A stretch of 60,018 nt of DNA from an uncultured Verrucomicrobiota bacterium (GTDB lineage Bacteria; Verrucomicrobiota; Verrucomicrobiia; Palsa-1439), in NCBI GenBank assembly GCA_903825435.1, contig CAIKAP010000117.1, positions 1 to 60,018 on the forward strand, given 5' to 3'. The translations under genes were made by a program, and so were the position numbers. Under the pieces are notes generated by a model. That model did not search any database. It had not been told where the DNA came from and saw nothing but the letters and a program-made list of their open reading frames with translations. Each line of letters starts with the position of its first letter. Positions within the stretch are counted from its first letter, which is position 1. Of this stretch, positions 7,198-59,881 are shown in pieces.

Positions 7198-9003
7198 TCA
7201 ACGCCCTGCGCGGGCGTGATATTCCTGCAACGAGTGGACCTTCAGGCCGCGCTCGCGCAGCGTTTTGATGCCGAGCGCCGCCGCCTTCGCGCCGGCCAGC
7301 GTTGTCATGATCGAGATGCGATGTAGGACGGCGGCGGTGCGGATCTTCACTTCGTCCGAGCGCGGCGTCTTACCGGCAGGCGTGTTGATGATGAGTTGGA
7401 CTTCGCCGTTCTTGATCAGGTCGAGAACGTTTGGTCGGCCTTCCTGAACTTTGAAGAGTCGCTGGACGGTCAGCCCGGTCTTCTCCAACACTTCGGCGGT
7501 GCCGTCGGTCGCACAAATGGTGAAGCCGAGGTCGGCGATATCCTTCGCGATCTTCGCGGCGTGTGGCTTGTCGGAGTCGCGGACGCTGATGAAGACCTTG
7601 CCGCCGGTTGGCAACGCGGGCTGGGCGGCCATCTGCGATTTCGCGTACGCCATACCCCAATCGCGTCCGATGCCCATGACTTCGCCGGTCGAGCGCATTT
7701 CGGGGCCGAGCAGGATGTCCTGGCCGGGGAACTTGCTGAACGGGAAAACAGATTCCTTCGCGGAGAAATATTTCGGCCAGATTTCCTCGGTGAACCCAAG
7801 CTCGGTCAGCTTCTTGCCCGTCATCACCTTCGCCGCCAACTTCGCCAGCGGATGGCCGATGGCTTTACTGACGAACGGCACGGTGCGCGAAGCGCGCGGA
7901 TTAACTTCGAGCACCCAAACGTCCTTGCCCTTGACAGCGAACTGTACATTCATCAACCCGGCGACGCGCAGCTCGCACGCCATCTCGTGTGTGTACCGGC
8001 GCATCGTTTCGATCTGGCTCTTACCAAGCGAGTGCGGCGGCAACACCATTGCCGCGTCGCCGCTATGGCAACCGGCAAACTCGATATGTTCCAGGAAGCC
8101 GCCGATGACAATCGTCTCGCCGCCAACGCCGATATCGGCGATGCAATCCACGTCCACCTCGATGGCTTCCTCAAGGAACTTGTCCACGAGCACGGGCCGT
8201 TCCGGCGACGCCTCGACGGCGTGGCGCATGTAGTAACGGAGTTCCTCGTCGGAATAAACAATCTGCATCGCGCGTCCGCCGAGCACAAACGACGGGCGGA
8301 CAAGCACCGGGTAGCCGAGCCGCTTTGAGGCGATGAGCGCTTCTTCTTCGTTCGTCGCAAGGCCGTTCGGTGGCTGCGGGATGCCGAGCTTGTCGAGCAT
8401 CGCGGCGAAAAGTTTCCGGTCCTCGGCGATCTCGATGCTCTGCGGCGTGGTACCGATGATGTTGACGCCGTTCTTCTGGAGGCCGAGCGCGAGGTTCAGC
8501 GGCGTCTGGCCGCCGAATTGCGCGATGGCACCCCAGCAACCTTCCCGTTCGTAAATGTGGAGCACATCTTCGAGCGTGAGCGGTTCGAAATAAAGTTTGT
8601 CGGAAGTGTCGTAGTCGGTCGAGACGGTCTCGGGGTTGGAGTTGACCATGATGGTCTCGAAGCCGAGTTCCTTAAGGGCAAACGCCGCGTGGACGCAGCA
8701 GTAATCAAACTCGATGCCCTGGCCGATGCGGTTCGGGCCGCCGCCGAGGATCATGACTTTCTTCTTTTTGGTCTTGCGGACCTCGTCGTCGCCGGTGTCG
8801 TAGGTGGAATAATAATATGGTGTGTACGCCTCGAACTCGGCGGCACAGGTGTCCACGAGCCGGTAGCTCGGCACGAGGCCAAGCTCCTTGCGCAACGCGC
8901 GGACCTCGTCCTCGGTCGAGCCGACCAGTTGCGCGATCTGCCGGTCGGAGAACCCGAGGGACTTCGCTCTTGCCAACAATGATTTTGTTTTCTCGCTCGC
9001 CAT
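7198..9003 (-). CDS. carB: carbamoyl-phosphate synthase large subunit, C-terminal half
   Basis: Contains the second (carbamate-phosphorylating) ATP-grasp half and the allosteric domain of CarB in 601 residues. It starts inside what is normally the oligomerisation domain (RAKSLGFSDRQIAQLVG), then VDTCAAEFEAYTPYYYSTY, GGGPNRIGQGIEFDYCCVHA, NSNPETVSTDYDTSDKLYFE, RPSFVLGGRAM, VLEVNPRASRTVPFVSKA and GPEMRSTGEVMGIG. The MGS-like domain follows (GKVFISVRDSDK to the end). The N-terminal half is a separate gene about 0.9 kb upstream on the same strand, with ppk2 between. TTGTCA-17-TAAGGT ends eight bases before the ATG, so it may have its own leaderless promoter. Confidence 0.96.
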   Translation of the reverse strand: MASEKTKSLLARAKSLGFSDRQIAQLVGSTEDEVRALRKELGLVPSYRLVDTCAAEFEAYTPYYYSTYDTGDDEVRKTKKKKVMILGGGPNRIGQGIEFDYCCVHAAFALKELGFETIMVNSNPETVSTDYDTSDKLYFEPLTLEDVLHIYEREGCWGAIAQFGGQTPLNLALGLQKNGVNIIGTTPQSIEIAEDRKLFAAMLDKLGIPQPPNGLATNEEEALIASKRLGYPVLVRPSFVLGGRAMQIVYSDEELRYYMRHAVEASPERPVLVDKFLEEAIEVDVDCIADIGVGGETIVIGGFLEHIEFAGCHSGDAAMVLPPHSLGKSQIETMRRYTHEMACELRVAGLMNVQFAVKGKDVWVLEVNPRASRTVPFVSKAIGHPLAKLAAKVMTGKKLTELGFTEEIWPKYFSAKESVFPFSKFPGQDILLGPEMRSTGEVMGIGRDWGMAYAKSQMAAQPALPTGGKVFISVRDSDKPHAAKIAKDIADLGFTICATDGTAEVLEKTGLTVQRLFKVQEGRPNVLDLIKNGEVQLIINTPAGKTPRSDEVKIRTAAVLHRISIMTTLAGAKAAALGIKTLRERGLKVHSLQEYHARAGR

Positions 9004-9925: not shown

Positions 9926-11392
<1,467 letters not shown>

Positions 11393-11504
11393 GGTGTCGG
11401 GGACAGACCTTATGACAGGGATTGCTTCCATTCAACCACGATTTTGGTATAAGCAGGCCGGAACAAATCACAACGTTCGGTGTCGGAAGCACGGAGATAA
11501 TGTC

Positions 11505-27093: not shown

Positions 27094-29085
27094 TCAGAAA
27101 TTGTCTTTCAGTTTCTCCTGTTTCTTTTGTTCCTCAAGCTTCCCTTTTTCTTCCATTGCTCGGTACGCGGCCTTTTGTTCATCAAGGAGTTGTTTAGCTG
27201 CATCTACGTCATAATAAAGAACCATAATGTCATTGAAACTGCCCGGCTCGTTACCCGCCATGAGAATATTTTTACGCCATTGACTAATACTGGTACCATG
27301 ATAACGCTCGAATTTAGAAAGGCCTGTTATTCGGTGGAGTTCTTCTAATCTATTGTCTCCGTTGCTGCTGTCAGCACCGTATTTCGCGTTAAGTGCTTCA
27401 GCAATCTTCGAAAATTCAGACCTTTCAAAAGTTACCGCAGCTCCATAAGAAATCAAACCATCTCCTTTCTTTTTTAGGAGAATCTGTATCACTTTAATGC
27501 TGTCATTCTTCATTGCTTCGGATGGCTTAATTAAAAGTGCATATGCGTTAGCAGGCTCTAGGCTTTCGATTGAAGGTAGAATGAAGGTTTTCCCTTTATA
27601 TGAGACAGTAGGATTTTTTACACCCTTACATAGGGTGCGGAGAGCTTTTATAAAAGGAGACAGATCCGCGCCGCCGCTGTTATTTTCATTGAATTTGTCC
27701 GCCTTGTCTAAGTTTTGCTCGATCTTATCGTATTGAATGGCTTCTTTCTCTCCTATTTCTATGCCCGGCAACCCATAACTCTTCGCCCGAGTTACCACTG
27801 CTCTACAAGCTTCATCAATACCTTCTTTAGTATCGCCAACAACTTCAGCATTTTTTTCTTCATACCACTTTCTGATCTCATCCATAGATGCGCCGAGCGG
27901 GATTCCATACATCGCCTTTTTCAGTTCGATAACTTGCGATGTTGGGAGGGCCATCTCAGCGGCTTCGCTCCGAGCTTTTGCCCTTGCGGTCTCTTTTTCA
28001 GTCTCTTCTTTTGCCTTTGCCGCCGCATCTTTTGCCTTGGCGGCCTCTTTCGCAAACGCTGCGGCCTCTGGGGAATTGTTTACATCTTTGAGGTAAGCGA
28101 CAACTGCTGCCTGATTGGCTTCTCTAGCTTTTTCGATGACATCTCCAAGGCCATCTCCAGTCAAACCTGCGCCATTAGCGACGAAAATCTTTACGACATC
28201 AAGGTGGCCTTTAACTGCCGCGCGTCTAAAAGCATCCAACATGTGTGCGCGGGCTTCTTCCTCGTTGGAACTCACCTCGTGGTCTTTAGCTACAGCGCGG
28301 CATAAAGAGTTCAACCCACCTCCACTCGGAGAACGTTCTAATAATATTTGTACAATCTCTGCATATCCATTTTCGGCTGCCATCTGTAAATCAACTAACG
28401 ATCCACGCGCACCGGCTTCTATAATAAGTGTCTTCAAAGTTTCTGGTTGGTTTTTCTTACACGCTGCACGCACACCAAAACCCGGAGCAGCTCCAGCCTT
28501 CACAAGCATCTTCACGGCTTCTATGTGCCCATTACCGGCTGCTAGGCTCAGTGGAATAGGATCATGCAAAGATTTAGTATCAACCTCAACGTCTACCAAT
28601 TGCTGGATGATATTGGTGCAGCCATTTTCAGCAGCAAAGGCAAGTGGTGTGTATTCCGCGAATTTTTTCACCTCGTTTGAAACGTCGCCGTAGTCGAAAC
28701 GGCGTCCACTTACTTGGCGTACCGTCTTGTTGATAGACGACATATCCTTCTTTAGCAGTTCTGCAAATTGAAGCGCATCACCTTGGCGTGCAGCTTCAAA
28801 AAGCGGAGGAAGAACAACAGATGCTTCCACAGCAGAATCTGTTGTTCTCTTGCGCTGGCTTCTTTTCCCGGAGTCATCTACGGGATTGACCGCTGCCGTG
28901 TTGTTCGTCGCGACCGATTCTGCGGCGGGCGGCTGGGTGTTAGGCTTATTCTGCTTGTTCAATTTCTTATTGATCAAATCCCCCAAGCCTCCGCCAAATT
29001 GAGCATTTGCGTTGCTTGTTTGGTGCAGAAGCATTCCCGCAACAATCAGAGACCAGCAGACATTCATAATGTTTTTGCGTTTCAT
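27094..29085 (-). CDS. secreted ankyrin-repeat protein
   Basis: 663 residues. Signal peptide (about 1-28, ending SNANAQ), then a low-complexity linker. About seven ankyrin repeats span residues 90-330: LPPLFEAARQGDALQFAELL, YTPLAFAAENGCTNIIQQLV, PIPLSLAAGNGHIEAVKMLV, LVDLQMAAENGYAEIVQILL, DAFRRAAVKGHLDVVKIFV. An Ala/Lys/Glu coiled coil (about 340-385) leads into a C-terminal region of about 270 residues I do not recognise. Codon and base use are AT-richer than in neighbouring operons, so recent acquisition is plausible. ATG 29085 is chosen over a TTG five codons upstream. Confidence 0.85.
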   Translation of the reverse strand: MKRKNIMNVCWSLIVAGMLLHQTSNANAQFGGGLGDLINKKLNKQNKPNTQPPAAESVATNNTAAVNPVDDSGKRSQRKRTTDSAVEASVVLPPLFEAARQGDALQFAELLKKDMSSINKTVRQVSGRRFDYGDVSNEVKKFAEYTPLAFAAENGCTNIIQQLVDVEVDTKSLHDPIPLSLAAGNGHIEAVKMLVKAGAAPGFGVRAACKKNQPETLKTLIIEAGARGSLVDLQMAAENGYAEIVQILLERSPSGGGLNSLCRAVAKDHEVSSNEEEARAHMLDAFRRAAVKGHLDVVKIFVANGAGLTGDGLGDVIEKAREANQAAVVAYLKDVNNSPEAAAFAKEAAKAKDAAAKAKEETEKETARAKARSEAAEMALPTSQVIELKKAMYGIPLGASMDEIRKWYEEKNAEVVGDTKEGIDEACRAVVTRAKSYGLPGIEIGEKEAIQYDKIEQNLDKADKFNENNSGGADLSPFIKALRTLCKGVKNPTVSYKGKTFILPSIESLEPANAYALLIKPSEAMKNDSIKVIQILLKKKGDGLISYGAAVTFERSEFSKIAEALNAKYGADSSNGDNRLEELHRITGLSKFERYHGTSISQWRKNILMAGNEPGSFNDIMVLYYDVDAAKQLLDEQKAAYRAMEEKGKLEEQKKQEKLKDNF

Positions 29086-29107
29086 ACTTTTACTTTTCAA
29101 TTCTTAA

Positions 29108-54611: not shown

Positions 54612-55766
54612 TCACGGATAACGGCGCGCTTGGAGTATCTCCAGCGAGGTCAGGCTGTACGCGGTGCAGAGAACGGGGTCGTTCTCCCACCAACGGTTGT
54701 TCTCGTTCTGCCAGAAACCGTCAGACTTCTGGAGCGAGACGAACTTCTTCATCAACTCATACCGCCAGTCGTGTTTCTTCCCCTTGGCATCGGTAAAGGT
54801 GTCATCGCCGTACACCGTCAACGACTTGGTGACAGTGTGGTAGTAGTAATATAGTCCCTGAGGTCCCATGCCGGGATTATCGTCGAGCGTGTAGTTGCGC
54901 TGGAGCCATTCCACCGCCGCTTTCACGCGCGGGTCGTCCTTCTTCAATTCCGCGTAGATGTAGCTCTTCAACCCCGCGTAGCTCATCGAGCCGTAGCTGC
55001 GCAACGGCGTCTTCTCGTCCGACGGCGGTGCCTCGTCGGCAAAACTCATCCCCGGCATGTACACGAACCCGCCAGCGTCGGCTTCGCGGACGTTCTTGGC
55101 CCACGGCTGGTCGTTGCTGGCAGGAAGGTTCTGGCAACGCTGAAGGAACTGGACGGCCTTGCTCCAATGCAACCGCGACCCGGTGTGCGGCGAGTCATCG
55201 CCAGCACGAGTCTCCAGCGACTCCGTCAGTCGGATCGCTTCCAGCGCCCACTGCGTGTTCGACAAATCCGGCCGCTCCCGTTTACCGTAGCCGATGCCGC
55301 CGTAGCTCGTGTCGGATTCCTTGACGTTCTCGCCCGCGTCAAACTGCGAGTCCAACAGGAACCGTCGGGCGCGCTTGATCGTGTCGGTCAGCTCCGTCCT
55401 GCCGGTGGCCAGCAACGCCATCGTACAGATCGCCGTTGAGTAATTCGGATACTTGTCGGTCTCACCGCCGCCGTAGATGGCGCCGTTGGACTTGACGTTG
55501 CTGAGCAGGAACTTCACCGCCCGGTCCATCGCGCCCTGCGGCGGTTTCTCGCTGCGCGCTAGCGCCGTCAACGCCAGCCCCGTAATCGCCGGATGATGCC
55601 GCCACGAGCCGTCGGCCTCCTGCTGCTTGAGCATCCAGGCTGTGCCGCGTTCCTGCGCGCGCGCCACCTCCTGCAACAGTGAGATGTCCACCTGGCTCGG
55701 CAATTCTGCCGCCGCCGCGACACCGACGAACAGCGTGACCACAAGGCTGGCAATGAGGAGGCGCAT
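54612..55766 (-). CDS. secreted protein with terpenoid cyclase/prenyltransferase-like repeats
   Basis: 384 residues, signal peptide MRLLIASLVVTLFVGVAAAA. Alpha-toroid repeats of the squalene-hopene cyclase fold recur: GTAWMLKQQEADGSWRHHPA, AVKFLLSNVKSNGAIYGGG, ARRFLLDSQFDAGENV, YAGLKSYIYAELKKDDPRV, MKKFVSLQKSDGFWQNENN. The acidic DxDD catalytic motif of cyclases is not seen, and the protein is exported, so a binding or structural role is more likely than terpenoid synthesis. Such secreted toroids are common in PVC bacteria. It follows bacterioferritin by two bases. Confidence 0.85.
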   Translation of the reverse strand: MRLLIASLVVTLFVGVAAAAELPSQVDISLLQEVARAQERGTAWMLKQQEADGSWRHHPAITGLALTALARSEKPPQGAMDRAVKFLLSNVKSNGAIYGGGETDKYPNYSTAICTMALLATGRTELTDTIKRARRFLLDSQFDAGENVKESDTSYGGIGYGKRERPDLSNTQWALEAIRLTESLETRAGDDSPHTGSRLHWSKAVQFLQRCQNLPASNDQPWAKNVREADAGGFVYMPGMSFADEAPPSDEKTPLRSYGSMSYAGLKSYIYAELKKDDPRVKAAVEWLQRNYTLDDNPGMGPQGLYYYYHTVTKSLTVYGDDTFTDAKGKKHDWRYELMKKFVSLQKSDGFWQNENNRWWENDPVLCTAYSLTSLEILQARRYP

Positions 55767-55768
55767 GG

Positions 55769-56239
55769 TCAGGACTTGGTTTGTTCAGCGAGATAGTTCT
55801 GAAGGCCGAGTTGTTCGATCTGGGTCAGTTGTGTTTCGATCCAGTCGAGGTGGTCTTCCTCGTCCTTGAGGAGCGATTTGAACAGTTCGACAGTGCCGTT
55901 GTCGCCCAGTTCGGCGGCGAGGCGGATGTCGGCATTGTAGTCCTTGATGGCGCTGACTTCGGCGGCGCAATCGTTCTGCAACTGTTCGGGCACGTCCTTG
56001 CCGATGCGGATCGGGCTGAGACGGCTCACCGTGGGCTGGCCTTCGAGGAAGAGGATGCGACCGATGAGTTTCTCGGCATGCTTCATCTCATCAACGGCAC
56101 GTTTTTCGACGAGTTTGTGGAATTTTTCGTAGCCCCAATTGGCGCACATTTCCGAGTGCACTATGTACTGGTTAATCGCGGCCAGCTCGTCGGCCAGCCG
56201 CGCGTTCAACTGTTTCAATACCTTCTCACTGCCTTTCAT
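55769..56239 (-). CDS. bfr: bacterioferritin
   Basis: 156-residue iron-storage subunit of a 24-mer. Ferroxidase ligands are visible in NARLADELAAINQYIVHSEM, EKRAVDEMKHAEKLIGRILF (also the heme-binding Met of DEMKHA) and KDYNADIRLAAELGD with DEEDHLDWIETQL. GGGAG precedes the ATG. Its stop lies two bases before the next gene. The nearby rubrerythrin fragment suggests that this region once held a larger iron/oxygen-defence set. Confidence 0.95.
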   Translation of the reverse strand: MKGSEKVLKQLNARLADELAAINQYIVHSEMCANWGYEKFHKLVEKRAVDEMKHAEKLIGRILFLEGQPTVSRLSPIRIGKDVPEQLQNDCAAEVSAIKDYNADIRLAAELGDNGTVELFKSLLKDEEDHLDWIETQLTQIEQLGLQNYLAEQTKS

Positions 56240-56330: not shown

Positions 56331-57407
56331 TCATGCGGCGGCGCGACAGGCCGCCGCGCGGGCGAGCAGCAATGCCTGCTCGGCAACGAGGAATTCCACC
56401 GGCGTGCGCAGGTAATGCACGGCGACAGGCTGGCACTGGCGCTGAAACACCGTTTGCTGCTTGAGCCATGCGGCGCTGGCGCGCCCGGCGGCGGGATAAC
56501 GGCCGGAAAGGGCGATGGCATCTATGCCGCCCATGGCCGCGAACGCCATACCGGATGCCTGGAGGAGACGGTAGCGGATCACGTCGCGAGCAAGTGTGTA
56601 TTTGTTTTTCGGCGCGTCAAAAAGTTCGTCGAAGGTGATGACCCGGCCGGTCAAGCCCTTGAGACCACTCTCGCGCGTGAAAAGCGTATTGAGCCGCTCG
56701 GGTCCCCAGTGGAGTTCCTCGGCCAGCAACATGACGAGGCCGGGGTCGAGGTCACCGCAGGTTGTCTGGCCAGGTAATCCCTCGATGGGGGTGACGCCAC
56801 TGGTGACGTACACCGGGCGGCCGCCATGGATTGCGGCAAGCTCCATCTGCGGTTCAAGGCAGAGCGAGAGAATGCGTGTGGCGCCGGTGCGCGCGGCATG
56901 CTGCCACGCGGCGGCGTGCAGCAGGCCGCAATAACCGAAACGGCGCAACCCGTGGGCACGCGCCAGATCGGTGTCGAGTGCATAAAGATACTCGCGCGCG
57001 GGCAGATCAGCGAAAAAGGCGGTATCGAACACCAGCACCTGCGGAACATCGGGGAACTGCGTGTCACATTGTTGCAACAGCTCCAGCAATACCGGGATGT
57101 GCAGCGGCGCGGCGGATGTCAGCGTTTCGAGCCGTCGAAGCACGTCGGCATCCACCACAACCGGTCCGTGAAATTCCGTGCCGCCGAAGGGCACGCGTAT
57201 CCCGATGGCGACCAGGGCTGCCGCCGTCTTGCGATTTGTTTGCGCGGCAGCCTGCAGGGCCTTCCGTATTTTCAACAGCGCAAGGTGGCACGCCATGGCG
57301 CCACGATAATCGCGGATCACGCCGGCGTTGTTTGGCCGCGTCAGGCGGTCCGTAAAAATGGCGTACCGGAGGGCTTCATGGCCGGGGACAAGTGTCAAAA
57401 GTTGCAT
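56331..57407 (-). CDS. acetate kinase-like paralogue lacking catalytic residues
   Basis: 358 residues aligned by eye with its neighbour AckA. Shared landmarks: APLHIPVLLELL for APLHNP, VLVFDTAFFADLPA for VFDTAFH, LRRFGYCGLLHAAAW for YGFHGTSH, VTPIEGLPGQTTCGDLDPG for PLQGLVMSTRCGDLD, and ESGLKGLTG for SSGVLGLSG. The phosphate-loop start NCGSSSLKY is absent, the catalytic HGTSH has become CGLLH, and the TR of TRCGD is TT. It should therefore not form acetyl phosphate. The start at 57407 has AGGAAACTTCC; an ATG at 57443 overlaps the ackA stop (ATGA). Confidence 0.8.
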   Translation of the reverse strand: MQLLTLVPGHEALRYAIFTDRLTRPNNAGVIRDYRGAMACHLALLKIRKALQAAAQTNRKTAAALVAIGIRVPFGGTEFHGPVVVDADVLRRLETLTSAAPLHIPVLLELLQQCDTQFPDVPQVLVFDTAFFADLPAREYLYALDTDLARAHGLRRFGYCGLLHAAAWQHAARTGATRILSLCLEPQMELAAIHGGRPVYVTSGVTPIEGLPGQTTCGDLDPGLVMLLAEELHWGPERLNTLFTRESGLKGLTGRVITFDELFDAPKNKYTLARDVIRYRLLQASGMAFAAMGGIDAIALSGRYPAAGRASAAWLKQQTVFQRQCQPVAVHYLRTPVEFLVAEQALLLARAAACRAAA

Positions 57408-57439
57408 GGAAGTTTCCTGTTCAAGCGGCTTGTTGTTCT

Positions 57440-58642
57440 TCATGGGGGGGGAAGCGTGGCATAGGTCTGGCGGCCAATGGCCAGTTCCTCGTTCGTCGCC
57501 ACGACAAGGATGCGGATGTCGCTGTCCATGGTTGCGACGTCGCATGGCAGCGACAGCGGCGCCGCGTTGTGCTGGAAATCCATCCGGACACCGAAACAGT
57601 CCATGTCAGCACAGACGGCGGCGCGCACCCCCGGCATCGTTTCGCCAATGGTGTCGGTGAAGATGATCGCGTCGGCGTCGCCGACGGTTGCGAGGTAGGC
57701 GCCGAGATATTTACGGAGGCGCCAGAGATAGACCTGGCTCGTGGCGTGCCGGCGCGCCGGGTCGGTCTCGTCGGGCGCGGGCGCGGCCAGCACGTCGCGG
57801 ATGTCGCCGGAGATGCCGGAGAGTCCCAGCACGCCGCTGCTCTTGTTCAGGGTCTTTTCGAGGGCATCGGTGTCGCCGCGCGCTGCGATCAGGAGGCGCA
57901 ACGCCGACGTGGAATCGAGGTCGCCGCAGCGCGTGCTCATCACCAGCCCCTGCAGCGGTGAAAAGCCCATGGTGTTGTCCACCGACCGGCCGTCCACCAC
58001 GGCGCAAAGGCTCGCGCCGCCGCTGCCGAGGTGGCAGCTCACCGCCGAGAATTTCGCCAATGGTTTTTTCAGGAACCGCGCCGCTTCCTCGACAACGTAC
58101 TGGTGGCTCGTGCCGTGAAACCCGTATTTGCGGATGCCCAGTTTTGCCGTAAGCTTGCGTGGCAGTGCATAGGTCGCGGCGCAGGCGGGAATAGTCGCAT
58201 GGAATGCGGTGTCGAACACCGCGACCTGGGGCAGGTCGGGATAACGTTCGCGGCAGGCGGCAATCAGCGCGGTTGCGGGGGGATTGTGCAGCGGGGCCAG
58301 TTTCTGGATCGTCTGCAGGTCGCGCAGCGCGTCGTCGTCCATGATCGTCGGGCCGGAAAAACGGGTGCCGCCGTGGACGAGACGGTGGCCGAGCGCGTTC
58401 GGCCTGGGCGCGCCGGTGTGCGCTAGCAGGCGCATGATTTCGTCGAAGGCGATGGCGTGGTCCGGCATTTCGACGGTGTGGACGGTTTGCTGTCCGTCCG
58501 CATGGTGCAGGATGCGCGAGGGCTCGGCGGTGCGCGGGCCGACGCGTTGGGCCTCGCCGCCCGCCAGTTCACGAGCTTCCGGCATGGCCAGCAGGCGATA
58601 CTTCAGCGACGAACTGCCGCAATTCAACACAAGGACATTCAT
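57440..58642 (-). CDS. ackA: acetate kinase
   Basis: 400 residues; makes ATP and acetate from acetyl phosphate, or the reverse. Motifs are complete: MNVLVLNCGSSSLKY, LGHRLVHGGTRF with the active-site Arg, KLAPLHNPP, VFDTAFHATIPA, YGFHGTSHQYV, SCHLGSGGASLCAV and STRCGDLD, plus the late ATNEELAIGRQT. It ends in a run of eight C (LPPP) next to its stop. It is cotranscribed with the degenerate paralogue through an ATGA overlap. No phosphotransacetylase or phosphoketolase is in the window. Confidence 0.95.
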   Translation of the reverse strand: MNVLVLNCGSSSLKYRLLAMPEARELAGGEAQRVGPRTAEPSRILHHADGQQTVHTVEMPDHAIAFDEIMRLLAHTGAPRPNALGHRLVHGGTRFSGPTIMDDDALRDLQTIQKLAPLHNPPATALIAACRERYPDLPQVAVFDTAFHATIPACAATYALPRKLTAKLGIRKYGFHGTSHQYVVEEAARFLKKPLAKFSAVSCHLGSGGASLCAVVDGRSVDNTMGFSPLQGLVMSTRCGDLDSTSALRLLIAARGDTDALEKTLNKSSGVLGLSGISGDIRDVLAAPAPDETDPARRHATSQVYLWRLRKYLGAYLATVGDADAIIFTDTIGETMPGVRAAVCADMDCFGVRMDFQHNAAPLSLPCDVATMDSDIRILVVATNEELAIGRQTYATLPPP

Positions 58643-58672: not shown

Positions 58673-59881
58673 TCAGATTTCGTCCGCGGTCCAGCCGCAG
58701 ACCGGGATGCCGATCAGGCTGTGCGCGATGGAGGCGGTGCCGTAGATCGCAGTGTGCAGTTTTTCCAATTCGACAAACTCGCCGCGCGCATGCGCCTGTG
58801 CCTCCAGCCCAGGGCCGTAACCGATCGTCGGGATTTTGAATTCGTTGACCAGCACGCTGCCCGCGGTGCCCATGCCCAGCCGTCCGAGTTGCCACTTACC
58901 GGGCTGGCTCGCGCAACCCGCCGCCGCGAGCGCCTGCCGGGCGCGCGTCATCAGCGGATCAAACGGGTCTGTGCTCCACGCGCTTACGACGCGTCGCGCC
59001 ACCGCCGTGCGGCCGGTGTAGAGGCGTTGCGCTTCTTGTCGTACTTGCACGGCGACCTCGACCGAGCTGGAGTTGCGCGCGATCTGCCGGGTCTCGTGCG
59101 CGATTTGGTTGAGCACGCCAACCTCGTCGCCGTGCTGATGCAACCGTCGCGCGACGCGCATTGAGGCCAGCGCCACGCCACCCTGCTGGCAGCGGCCATT
59201 CTGAGCGAGGACAAAATCTTCGCCCGCAGAATCCGCGCCACCCATCACCTCGCCGAGATCACCGGCGATGCTGCGCGCAATGTCGTCCACCTGAAATGAA
59301 TTGAGACCTTCTACCTTGATGTCTATCTCCATCCAGCCATCGTGCCCGTAGTAAAGGCCAAGACCTGTCGGTTCGCCCATGATGACATAGTCCGGCTTCA
59401 ACCCCATCTCTGGCAACGTTCGTTCCATCAGGCAGCGCACACCCAGACTTAGGCCGTTTTCTTCCGCCACGGTCGCGGCCACCACTAGGTTGCCGTCCAG
59501 CGGCAGCAGGCTGTGTTTGAGCAGGTAAGCGGCATACAATTGCGCCGCCAAGCCGCTTTTGCAGTCTGCCGCACCCAGGCCGAAAAGCCGCCCGTCCTTC
59601 ACATGACACGGATGCGGATCGTCCCTGTCGGGCACAACGGTGTCGAGATGGCTGACCAATGCGAGCGTGGTATCCGCCTGCCGTCCCAGCAGCACACCGG
59701 TGACGTTGCCGCAGTCGTCGCGCACCACCGTGTGGAAACCGAGCGAGCGCATTTTCTCCTCGACCAGGTCGGCGGCCTGTTTCTCGTGAAGGCTCGTGTT
59801 GTCAATACTGACCAGCTCGCGCGCAAATTCCGTGGCGTCCGCCCTCAACCCATTCAATCGTCGTTGTAAAATATCGTACAT
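58673..59881 (-). CDS. M20-family metallohydrolase (ArgE/DapE/YgeY-like)
   Basis: 402 residues. Zinc-site motifs are ALVSHLDTVVPD, LFGLGAADCKSGLAAQLYA, VAATVAEENGLSLG and VIMGEPTGLGLYYGHDGWME in the first half, with AHARGEFVELEKL and the ending GWTADEI in the last part. The C-terminal third (GKWQLGRLGMGTAGSVLVNE, FKIPTIGYGPGLE) fits YgeY-like hydrolases. The middle (about 195-300), where the lid normally carries a His-x-Ser/Ala-x-Pro motif, does not match the family here. ATG 59881 is preferred to 59944. It lies 31 bp upstream of ackA on the same strand. Confidence 0.82.
   Translation of the reverse strand: MYDILQRRLNGLRADATEFARELVSIDNTSLHEKQAADLVEEKMRSLGFHTVVRDDCGNVTGVLLGRQADTTLALVSHLDTVVPDRDDPHPCHVKDGRLFGLGAADCKSGLAAQLYAAYLLKHSLLPLDGNLVVAATVAEENGLSLGVRCLMERTLPEMGLKPDYVIMGEPTGLGLYYGHDGWMEIDIKVEGLNSFQVDDIARSIAGDLGEVMGGADSAGEDFVLAQNGRCQQGGVALASMRVARRLHQHGDEVGVLNQIAHETRQIARNSSSVEVAVQVRQEAQRLYTGRTAVARRVVSAWSTDPFDPLMTRARQALAAAGCASQPGKWQLGRLGMGTAGSVLVNEFKIPTIGYGPGLEAQAHARGEFVELEKLHTAIYGTASIAHSLIGIPVCGWTADEI

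Follow-up and report, generated by a model that had tools for sequence, protein, structure and literature searches.

Two acetate kinase family genes in tandem

The window analysed here, that is, the whole stretch of 60,018 bases, is one contig of a 3.43-Mb genome and contains two genes of the acetate kinase family in tandem on the minus strand. The first-pass annotation had described them, at 56331-58642, as an acetate kinase followed by a dead-site paralogue, and both genes are confirmed. Together with a hydrolase gene ahead of them, they form the set of genes considered below:

58673..59881, minus strand: M20-family metallohydrolase from its conserved start, first gene of the set, catalytic motifs intact, YgeY-like
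57440..58642, minus strand: acetate kinase P0002 (the partner), 400 aa, with intact catalytic residues and a donor site like that of the Entamoeba PPi-kinase
57408..57439, minus strand: spacer of 32 nt from the kinase stop to the conserved paralogue start; AGGA begins 11 nt ahead of the ATG
56331..57443, minus strand: paralogue P0001 counted from the in-frame ATG at 57443, 370 aa
56331..57407, minus strand: dead acetate kinase paralogue from its conserved start, 358 aa, beginning at residue 13 of P0001

The partner kinase passes both family models (PF00871, 367.9 bits with a cut-off of 22; TIGR00016, 356.7 bits with a cut-off of 293.4). The paralogue is a homologue of the family according to PF00871 (147.7 bits), and its score with TIGR00016 (134.7 bits) is below the cut-off of 293.4. 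An in-frame ATG of the window paralogue at 57443 overlaps the kinase stop (ATGA), and translational coupling of the two genes had been proposed. The orthologue alignment places the conserved start at the codon matching residue 13 of P0001 (57407), and in the window translation probably does not begin at the ATGA overlap. Coupling itself is still likely, because the two genes overlap, by 4, 13 or 20 nt, in 13 of the 24 loci described below; the spacing is 9-32 nt in 10 further loci and 249 nt in L140. The window's own genome has a third member of the family on another contig (C196), outside the M20 set, which is directly followed by a frame reading like phosphate acetyltransferase when its translation is inspected by eye.

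Distribution of the gene pair

A search of genome contigs with the single protein gave no match, while a profile made from a 3-row alignment recovered nine orthologous loci (L066-L074) in named records of Lentisphaerae, Verrucomicrobia, Sedimentisphaerales, Planctomycetaceae and one organism labelled Omnitrophota. In genome samples, the dead copy was found in 3 of 384 genomes of the window's class, 11 of 387 genomes of its phylum (12 above threshold, one of them an ordinary kinase), 6 of 14 genomes of the phylum of L070's genome and 1 of 294 genomes of the phylum of L071's genome (five above threshold, four ordinary). The samples and the named-record loci overlap, and merging them, with the fragment in genome G471 included, leaves 24 distinct loci (the window, L066-L074, L140-L148 and L150-L154) in Verrucomicrobia, Lentisphaerae, planctomycetes and the organism labelled Omnitrophota. 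Since several are close relatives (L141-L143 belong to one genus and L144-L147 to another), the 24 loci do not stand for 24 independent events. The count leaves out L075-L080, G576 and the four matches in L071's phylum, which are ordinary acetate kinases. Moreover, 374 plasmid records matched; five of them were inspected, all with less than 60% identity, and these look like ordinary acetate kinases.

In all 24 loci the paralogue has an adjoining partner kinase, and the conservation of the tandem pair, which the first-pass annotation had proposed to check, is thereby established, together with the purifying selection described below. In the sample of 387 phylum genomes, the profile of the partner found 12 genomes and that of the dead copy 11, all among those 12; in the twelfth, G471, the first part of the dead copy (~240 residues) lies directly behind the kinase and the contig end cuts off the rest. 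No genome with the partner and without the dead copy, or the reverse, was seen in this sample. Among 17 distinct genomes searched for the whole family, all except G648 have a further acetate kinase or a fragment of one besides the pair, which makes it unlikely that the usual acetate kinase role falls to the pair. Membrane pyrophosphatase was considered as an indicator of a PPi economy and rejected as not significant: it is present in 11 of 12 carriers and 248 of 375 other genomes (p 0.053, relatedness ignored). As a separate observation, the acetate kinases of L042, L048, L051, L053, L057 and L124-L127, from the window's phylum and the planctomycete phylum, sit in open frames of ~770-870 aa, which are perhaps fusions or long frame readthrough.

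The partner kinase has a remodelled donor site

The partner keeps the catalytic residues of the family (M. thermophila numbering): Asn7, Ser10-12, Lys14, Arg91, His123, Asp148, His180, Arg241, Asp283 and Glu384 in 24 of 24 sequences and Arg285 in 21. Val93, Leu122 (Ile in 3 of 24) and Pro232 of the acetate pocket are also kept. Its fold, catalytic residues and acetate pocket are those of canonical AckA (M. thermophila 1TUU, and the C196 copy of its own genome), whereas the loops of the donor site differ:

58007..58036, minus strand: PHOSPHATE2 loop CHLGSGGASL of the partner, with one extra Gly (CHLGNGASx in ordinary kinases)
57920..57940, minus strand: LOOP3 MSTRCGD of the partner, with Ser239 (mostly MGTR in ordinary kinases)
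57641..57661, minus strand: ADENOSINE motif FTDTIGE of the partner, with Asp330 and Thr331 replacing Ala/Gly and Gly

The three residues of an ATP-type donor site, Asn211, Gly239 and Gly331, are Ser, Ser and Thr in all 24 partners. The two features of the Entamoeba-type PPi kinase, a second Gly in PHOSPHATE2 and Asp330 followed by a residue other than Gly at 331 (here Thr), are equally constant (24/24). By comparison, 79 other acetate kinases from the fetched loci, M. thermophila included, have the PHOSPHATE2 extension in no case, Ser239 in three and Asp330 without Gly at 331 in two. A further donor-site variant, FTDRIGE(N/S), which lacks both Gly331 and the loop extension, was observed in the acetate kinases of L009 (G008, same family) and L052 (G160). 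The upstream gene had been taken for the active enzyme; it does keep the catalytic residues, but the altered donor site sets it apart from an ordinary acetate kinase. To judge from these residues, the partner is an acetate kinase whose donor site is remodelled and probably uses PPi/Pi.

The corresponding loops of the Entamoeba histolytica enzyme EhACK (4h0o) are CHLGTGGSSC, MSTRCGD and FTDQMG, so the two enzymes have in common a PHOSPHATE2 loop longer by one residue, Ser239, Asp330 and the absence of Gly at 331. They differ in that the partner has Thr and not Gln at 331 and mostly Ile and not Met at 332, and in that it is bacterial and always paired with a dead paralogue, while no dead partner of EhACK is mentioned in the excerpted text of PMC4390882, PMC5517563 and PMC5931981. 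The same excerpts describe Gly331 as invariant among ATP enzymes, report that EhACK runs mainly in the PPi-forming direction, and place an extended PHOSPHATE2 loop with a neighbouring Asp only in Entamoeba and four Anaerolineaceae sequences. In the excerpt of PMC5517563 the extra Gly and the Asp are regarded as diagnostic of EhACK-like enzymes, and the putative PPi-type kinases of Anaerolineaceae (Chloroflexi) resemble the partner in the extended PHOSPHATE2 loop and the ADENOSINE Asp, with Asp and not Thr at 331. PPi-dependent acetate kinase is described as exclusive to Entamoeba histolytica in the part of PMC5931981 consulted.

The global structure of the partner does not single out EhACK (Z 37.3 to 6ioy, Z 32.8 to 4h0o), so the case rests on the loops. 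In a tree calculated without the trait columns, the best topology joins EhACK to the partner clade with weak support (48/73), so both shared descent and convergence are possible origins of the likeness.

The cleft of the paralogue is rebuilt

The paralogue was stated in the first-pass annotation to have lost the phosphate loop, the catalytic histidine motif and the arginine of TRCGD. The loss of the phosphate loop is borne out by the alignment of 24 orthologues (M. thermophila numbering), in which Asn7 is retained in 1, Ser10 in 1, Ser11 in 2, Ser12 in 1 and Lys14 in none, that is, each in at most 2 of 24; the PHOSPHATE1 loop shows a patternless decay across the orthologues. Arg241, the arginine of TRCGD, is likewise absent (0/24), and so are Arg285 and Glu384 (0/24 each), with Asp283 retained once. 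The claim about the histidines holds in part: His208 is replaced by Cys in all orthologues, with a CLE-type sequence instead of HLGNG, and position 180 is Cys in the window, but His180 is kept in 17 of 24 (the others being Cys in 4, Gln in 2 and Tyr in 1) and His123 in 23. On the acyl side, Arg91 (19/24), His123 (23/24), His184 (24/24) and Pro232 (24/24) are kept. Glu234 is conserved in 23 of 24. The altered loops in the window are:

56841..56861, minus strand: rebuilt PHOSPHATE2 CLEPQME of the paralogue, with Cys208 and Glu214 in 24/24
56742..56783, minus strand: rebuilt LOOP3 EGLPGQTTCGDLDP of the paralogue, lacking Arg241; this block is strongly conserved in the family
56496..56507, minus strand: SGRY of the paralogue, replacing the adenosine motif TAGI according to the orthologue alignment

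Across the orthologues PHOSPHATE2 usually reads CLEPxPE, LOOP3 is a conserved block PLEGLPGxTxCG(D/E)xD, and the ADENOSINE motif has become (S/T)G, then Arg in 14 of 24 with Tyr next to it in 19 of 24. Judged by this pattern, the cleft is rebuilt, not lost. The AlphaFold model of the paralogue (mean pLDDT 78.5, with low confidence at residues 135-156 and 204-224) has acetate and propionate kinases as its best structural matches (2iir: Z 30.0, rmsd 4.4, 340 aligned); the models of kinase and paralogue are monomers in which several conserved loops have low confidence.

The M20 hydrolase gene and the sigma-54 regulator

The order M20 hydrolase, kinase and dead copy on one strand is found in 19 of the 19 loci with enough flank; L150-L154, whose flanks are too short to reach the M20 gene, are outside these 19. 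The M20 protein scores below the YgeY cut-offs (NF009555, 182.6 bits with a cut-off of 321; TIGR03526, 125.1 bits with a cut-off of 321.5), and in 10 aligned sequences the HxD, D, EE, E and H positions, which we take to be catalytic for the M20 family, are intact. Upstream of the set, a divergent sigma-54 activator is present in 16 of the 19 loci; the contigs of the window and L148 end before its position, and in L074 none was found within 3.6 kb. Four regulators were scanned, and the architecture is that of XylR/DmpR: all four have XylR_N and the sigma-54 AAA domain, three have V4R above the cut-off (L069 reaches 28.1 with a cut-off of 31) and three have the Fis-type HTH (L069 ends at the contig end). 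Two were compared with the MobR equivalog NF041906 and scored 387.7 and 394.3 bits, below its cut-off of 999. In addition, 16 of 19 loci have a -24/-12-like element ahead of the M20 gene, each matched by at most 3% of shuffles (simple shuffles, with approximate gene starts for L140-L148); none was found in the window, L069 and L070.

Selection, phylogeny and probable horizontal transfer

In 10 pairs of relatives (Nei-Gojobori), the kinase has a dN/dS of 0.035-0.173 and the dead copy one of 0.061-0.199 (dS of the dead copy above 1, thus saturating, in 4 of 10). Although it evolves faster than the kinase, the dead copy is clearly constrained by purifying selection. In the tree, 19 partners form one clade and 19 dead copies another (SH-aLRT 100 each), the latter on a long branch; a joint clade of partner and dead copy, as expected if the dead copy descends from the partner, is neither rejected (p-AU 0.33) nor demonstrated.

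The proteins of the window are closest to those of the Lentisphaerae loci L066/L067 (kinase 82%, M20 80%, dead copy 78%). In contrast, a carbamoyl-phosphate synthase gene on the same contig has 90% identity to the window's genus and 66% to the genome of L066, and the gene at 54612-55766 has 85% identity to the same genus. In a same-genus genome there is no match to the set beside the counterpart of 54612-55766 over the 16 kb covered, and no strong orthologue was found in 10 other genomes of the family, several of them incomplete. As the neighbouring genes are close to the organism's own genus and the set is close to Lentisphaerae, the set was probably acquired as a unit, and these identities suggest a Lentisphaerae-like source from which the window copy was probably acquired horizontally. 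Only one junction of the acquired region is visible, because the contig ends. A misbinned contig was considered and rejected, as genes elsewhere on the contig share 85-90% identity with the same genus, which makes the contig genuine up to ~55.7 kb; there is a small residual chance that its last 4 kb are chimeric. The gene at 54612-55766 (minus strand) encodes a squalene-hopene-cyclase-like C-terminal domain, is conserved in several genomes of the family and marks the edge of the acquired region. Between it and the set lies a bacterioferritin gene (55769-56236, minus strand) to which the same-genus genome has nothing closely similar (the best match is 64% in G034); it may have come in together with the set or independently of it.

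Proposed function of the pair

Conservation of the pair, purifying selection and co-occurrence support a functional kinase/dead-copy pair. The earlier proposal of a regulatory subunit of acetate kinase is upheld to this extent; its ordinary ATP frame is probably wrong because of the donor-site remodelling, the M20 gene and the sigma-54 regulator. We assign a rough probability of 0.55 to the reading that the set is an inducible operon encoding a heteromeric acetate kinase, in which a subunit with a remodelled donor site, probably for PPi/Pi, is joined by an obligate subunit without catalytic function; of this we infer the heteromer and the donor. A horizontally mobile operon would be switched on by the XylR_N/V4R-type sigma-54 activator, invisible in the window because of the contig end, and would produce M20, kinase and dead copy; the inducer, to go by the domain names only, may be an aromatic or similar small molecule. 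M20 would act as a deacylase-type hydrolase, and the acid that it releases could be the link as substrate or product. Acetate kinases are dimers, and the two kinase-fold proteins would most likely assemble into a heteromer via the usual dimer interface. The partner would catalyse acyl phosphate + Pi -> carboxylate + PPi, or the reverse, and the dead copy, which lacks both ATP loops and Arg241, would be its obligate activating, stabilising or ligand-sensing subunit. A more specific form of this reading, which we put forward tentatively, is a bacterial two-subunit PPi/Pi-dependent acetate kinase in which the catalytic subunit works only with the dead paralogue, whose cleft would bind a phosphate-bearing or carboxylate ligand, the sigma-54-controlled set with its deacylase having been passed between PVC bacteria. 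An inactive ASKHA-fold paralogue that partners an active one is known from TsaB/TsaD, of another family and reaction. Activation by a dead paralogue is also known from the trypanosome AdoMetDC prozyme and deoxyhypusine synthase, of other protein families, in which an active and a dead paralogue are paired (PMC5201418, PMC3663545); the complex is shown there, while here it is the predicted arrangement. The searched titles and abstracts of open-licence literature contained no description of the kinase/dead-copy pair.

The proposed PPi/Pi-using heteromer has to be set against several alternatives, and the probabilities that we attach to the readings overlap. Several points speak against it: Thr stands at 331, where Entamoeba has Gln and Anaerolineaceae have Asp; changes in the pocket alone failed to turn the M. 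thermophila kinase to PPi use, as the excerpt of PMC5517563 reports; the grouping with EhACK is unsupported (48/73); and membrane pyrophosphatase is not clearly enriched in carriers. Moreover, the co-occurrence of the two genes could come from operon membership alone, without physical contact. The paralogue might then act on its own, as a sensor or a new enzyme with a repurposed cleft, and have only the operon in common with the kinase; its conserved residues do gather in the former active-site loops (Cys208, Glu214, His184, Pro232, Glu234, His123, Arg91), and a mere structural subunit would need no conserved cleft, but the paralogue is never seen without the partner and nearly always adjoins it within 32 nt, and the dimeric nature of acetate kinases also speaks for contact, which leaves an independent role doubtful.

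It is unlikely that the kinase uses ATP in the ordinary way, with a pseudo-subunit that regulates it and donor-site changes that only tune the nucleotide preference. The kept catalytic residues and acetate pocket (Val93, Leu122, Pro232) would fit such an enzyme, and the Asn211Ser, Gly239Ser and Gly331Ala variants of the M. thermophila kinase still use ATP according to the excerpt of PMC4390882; however, the activity of these variants fell roughly 15- to 200-fold (same excerpt), all 24 partners carry the complete set of changes along with the loop extension, and nearly all carriers searched have a further acetate kinase gene. As for a decaying duplicate, the lost hallmark residues and the faster evolution than in the partner are what a pseudogene would display, but no stops inside the paralogue, which the first-pass annotation had named as a possible sign of decay in relatives, were found among the matches listed, dN/dS is well below 1 and blocks are conserved between phyla. 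The stop-free matches listed and the dN/dS of 0.06-0.20 rule out a pseudogene or a frameshift artefact for practical purposes.

The pair adds a further and larger bacterial candidate set with the Entamoeba-type donor signature, always with a dead sibling. With it one can test what decides between ATP and PPi in this enzyme family, and whether a pseudoenzyme partner contributes to the donor switch that single-protein mutagenesis did not achieve.

Other features of the window

The large subunit of carbamoyl-phosphate synthase is apparently split in the window (7198-9003 and 9926-11431, both minus strand), with a 268-aa frame in between. Full-length frames of ~1,080-1,100 aa are present in the same-genus genome G001, and G003 and G010 have frames of ~490 aa and ~620 aa some 5-6 kb apart. 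Furthermore, an ankyrin-repeat protein of 668 aa is encoded at 27094-29100 (minus strand).
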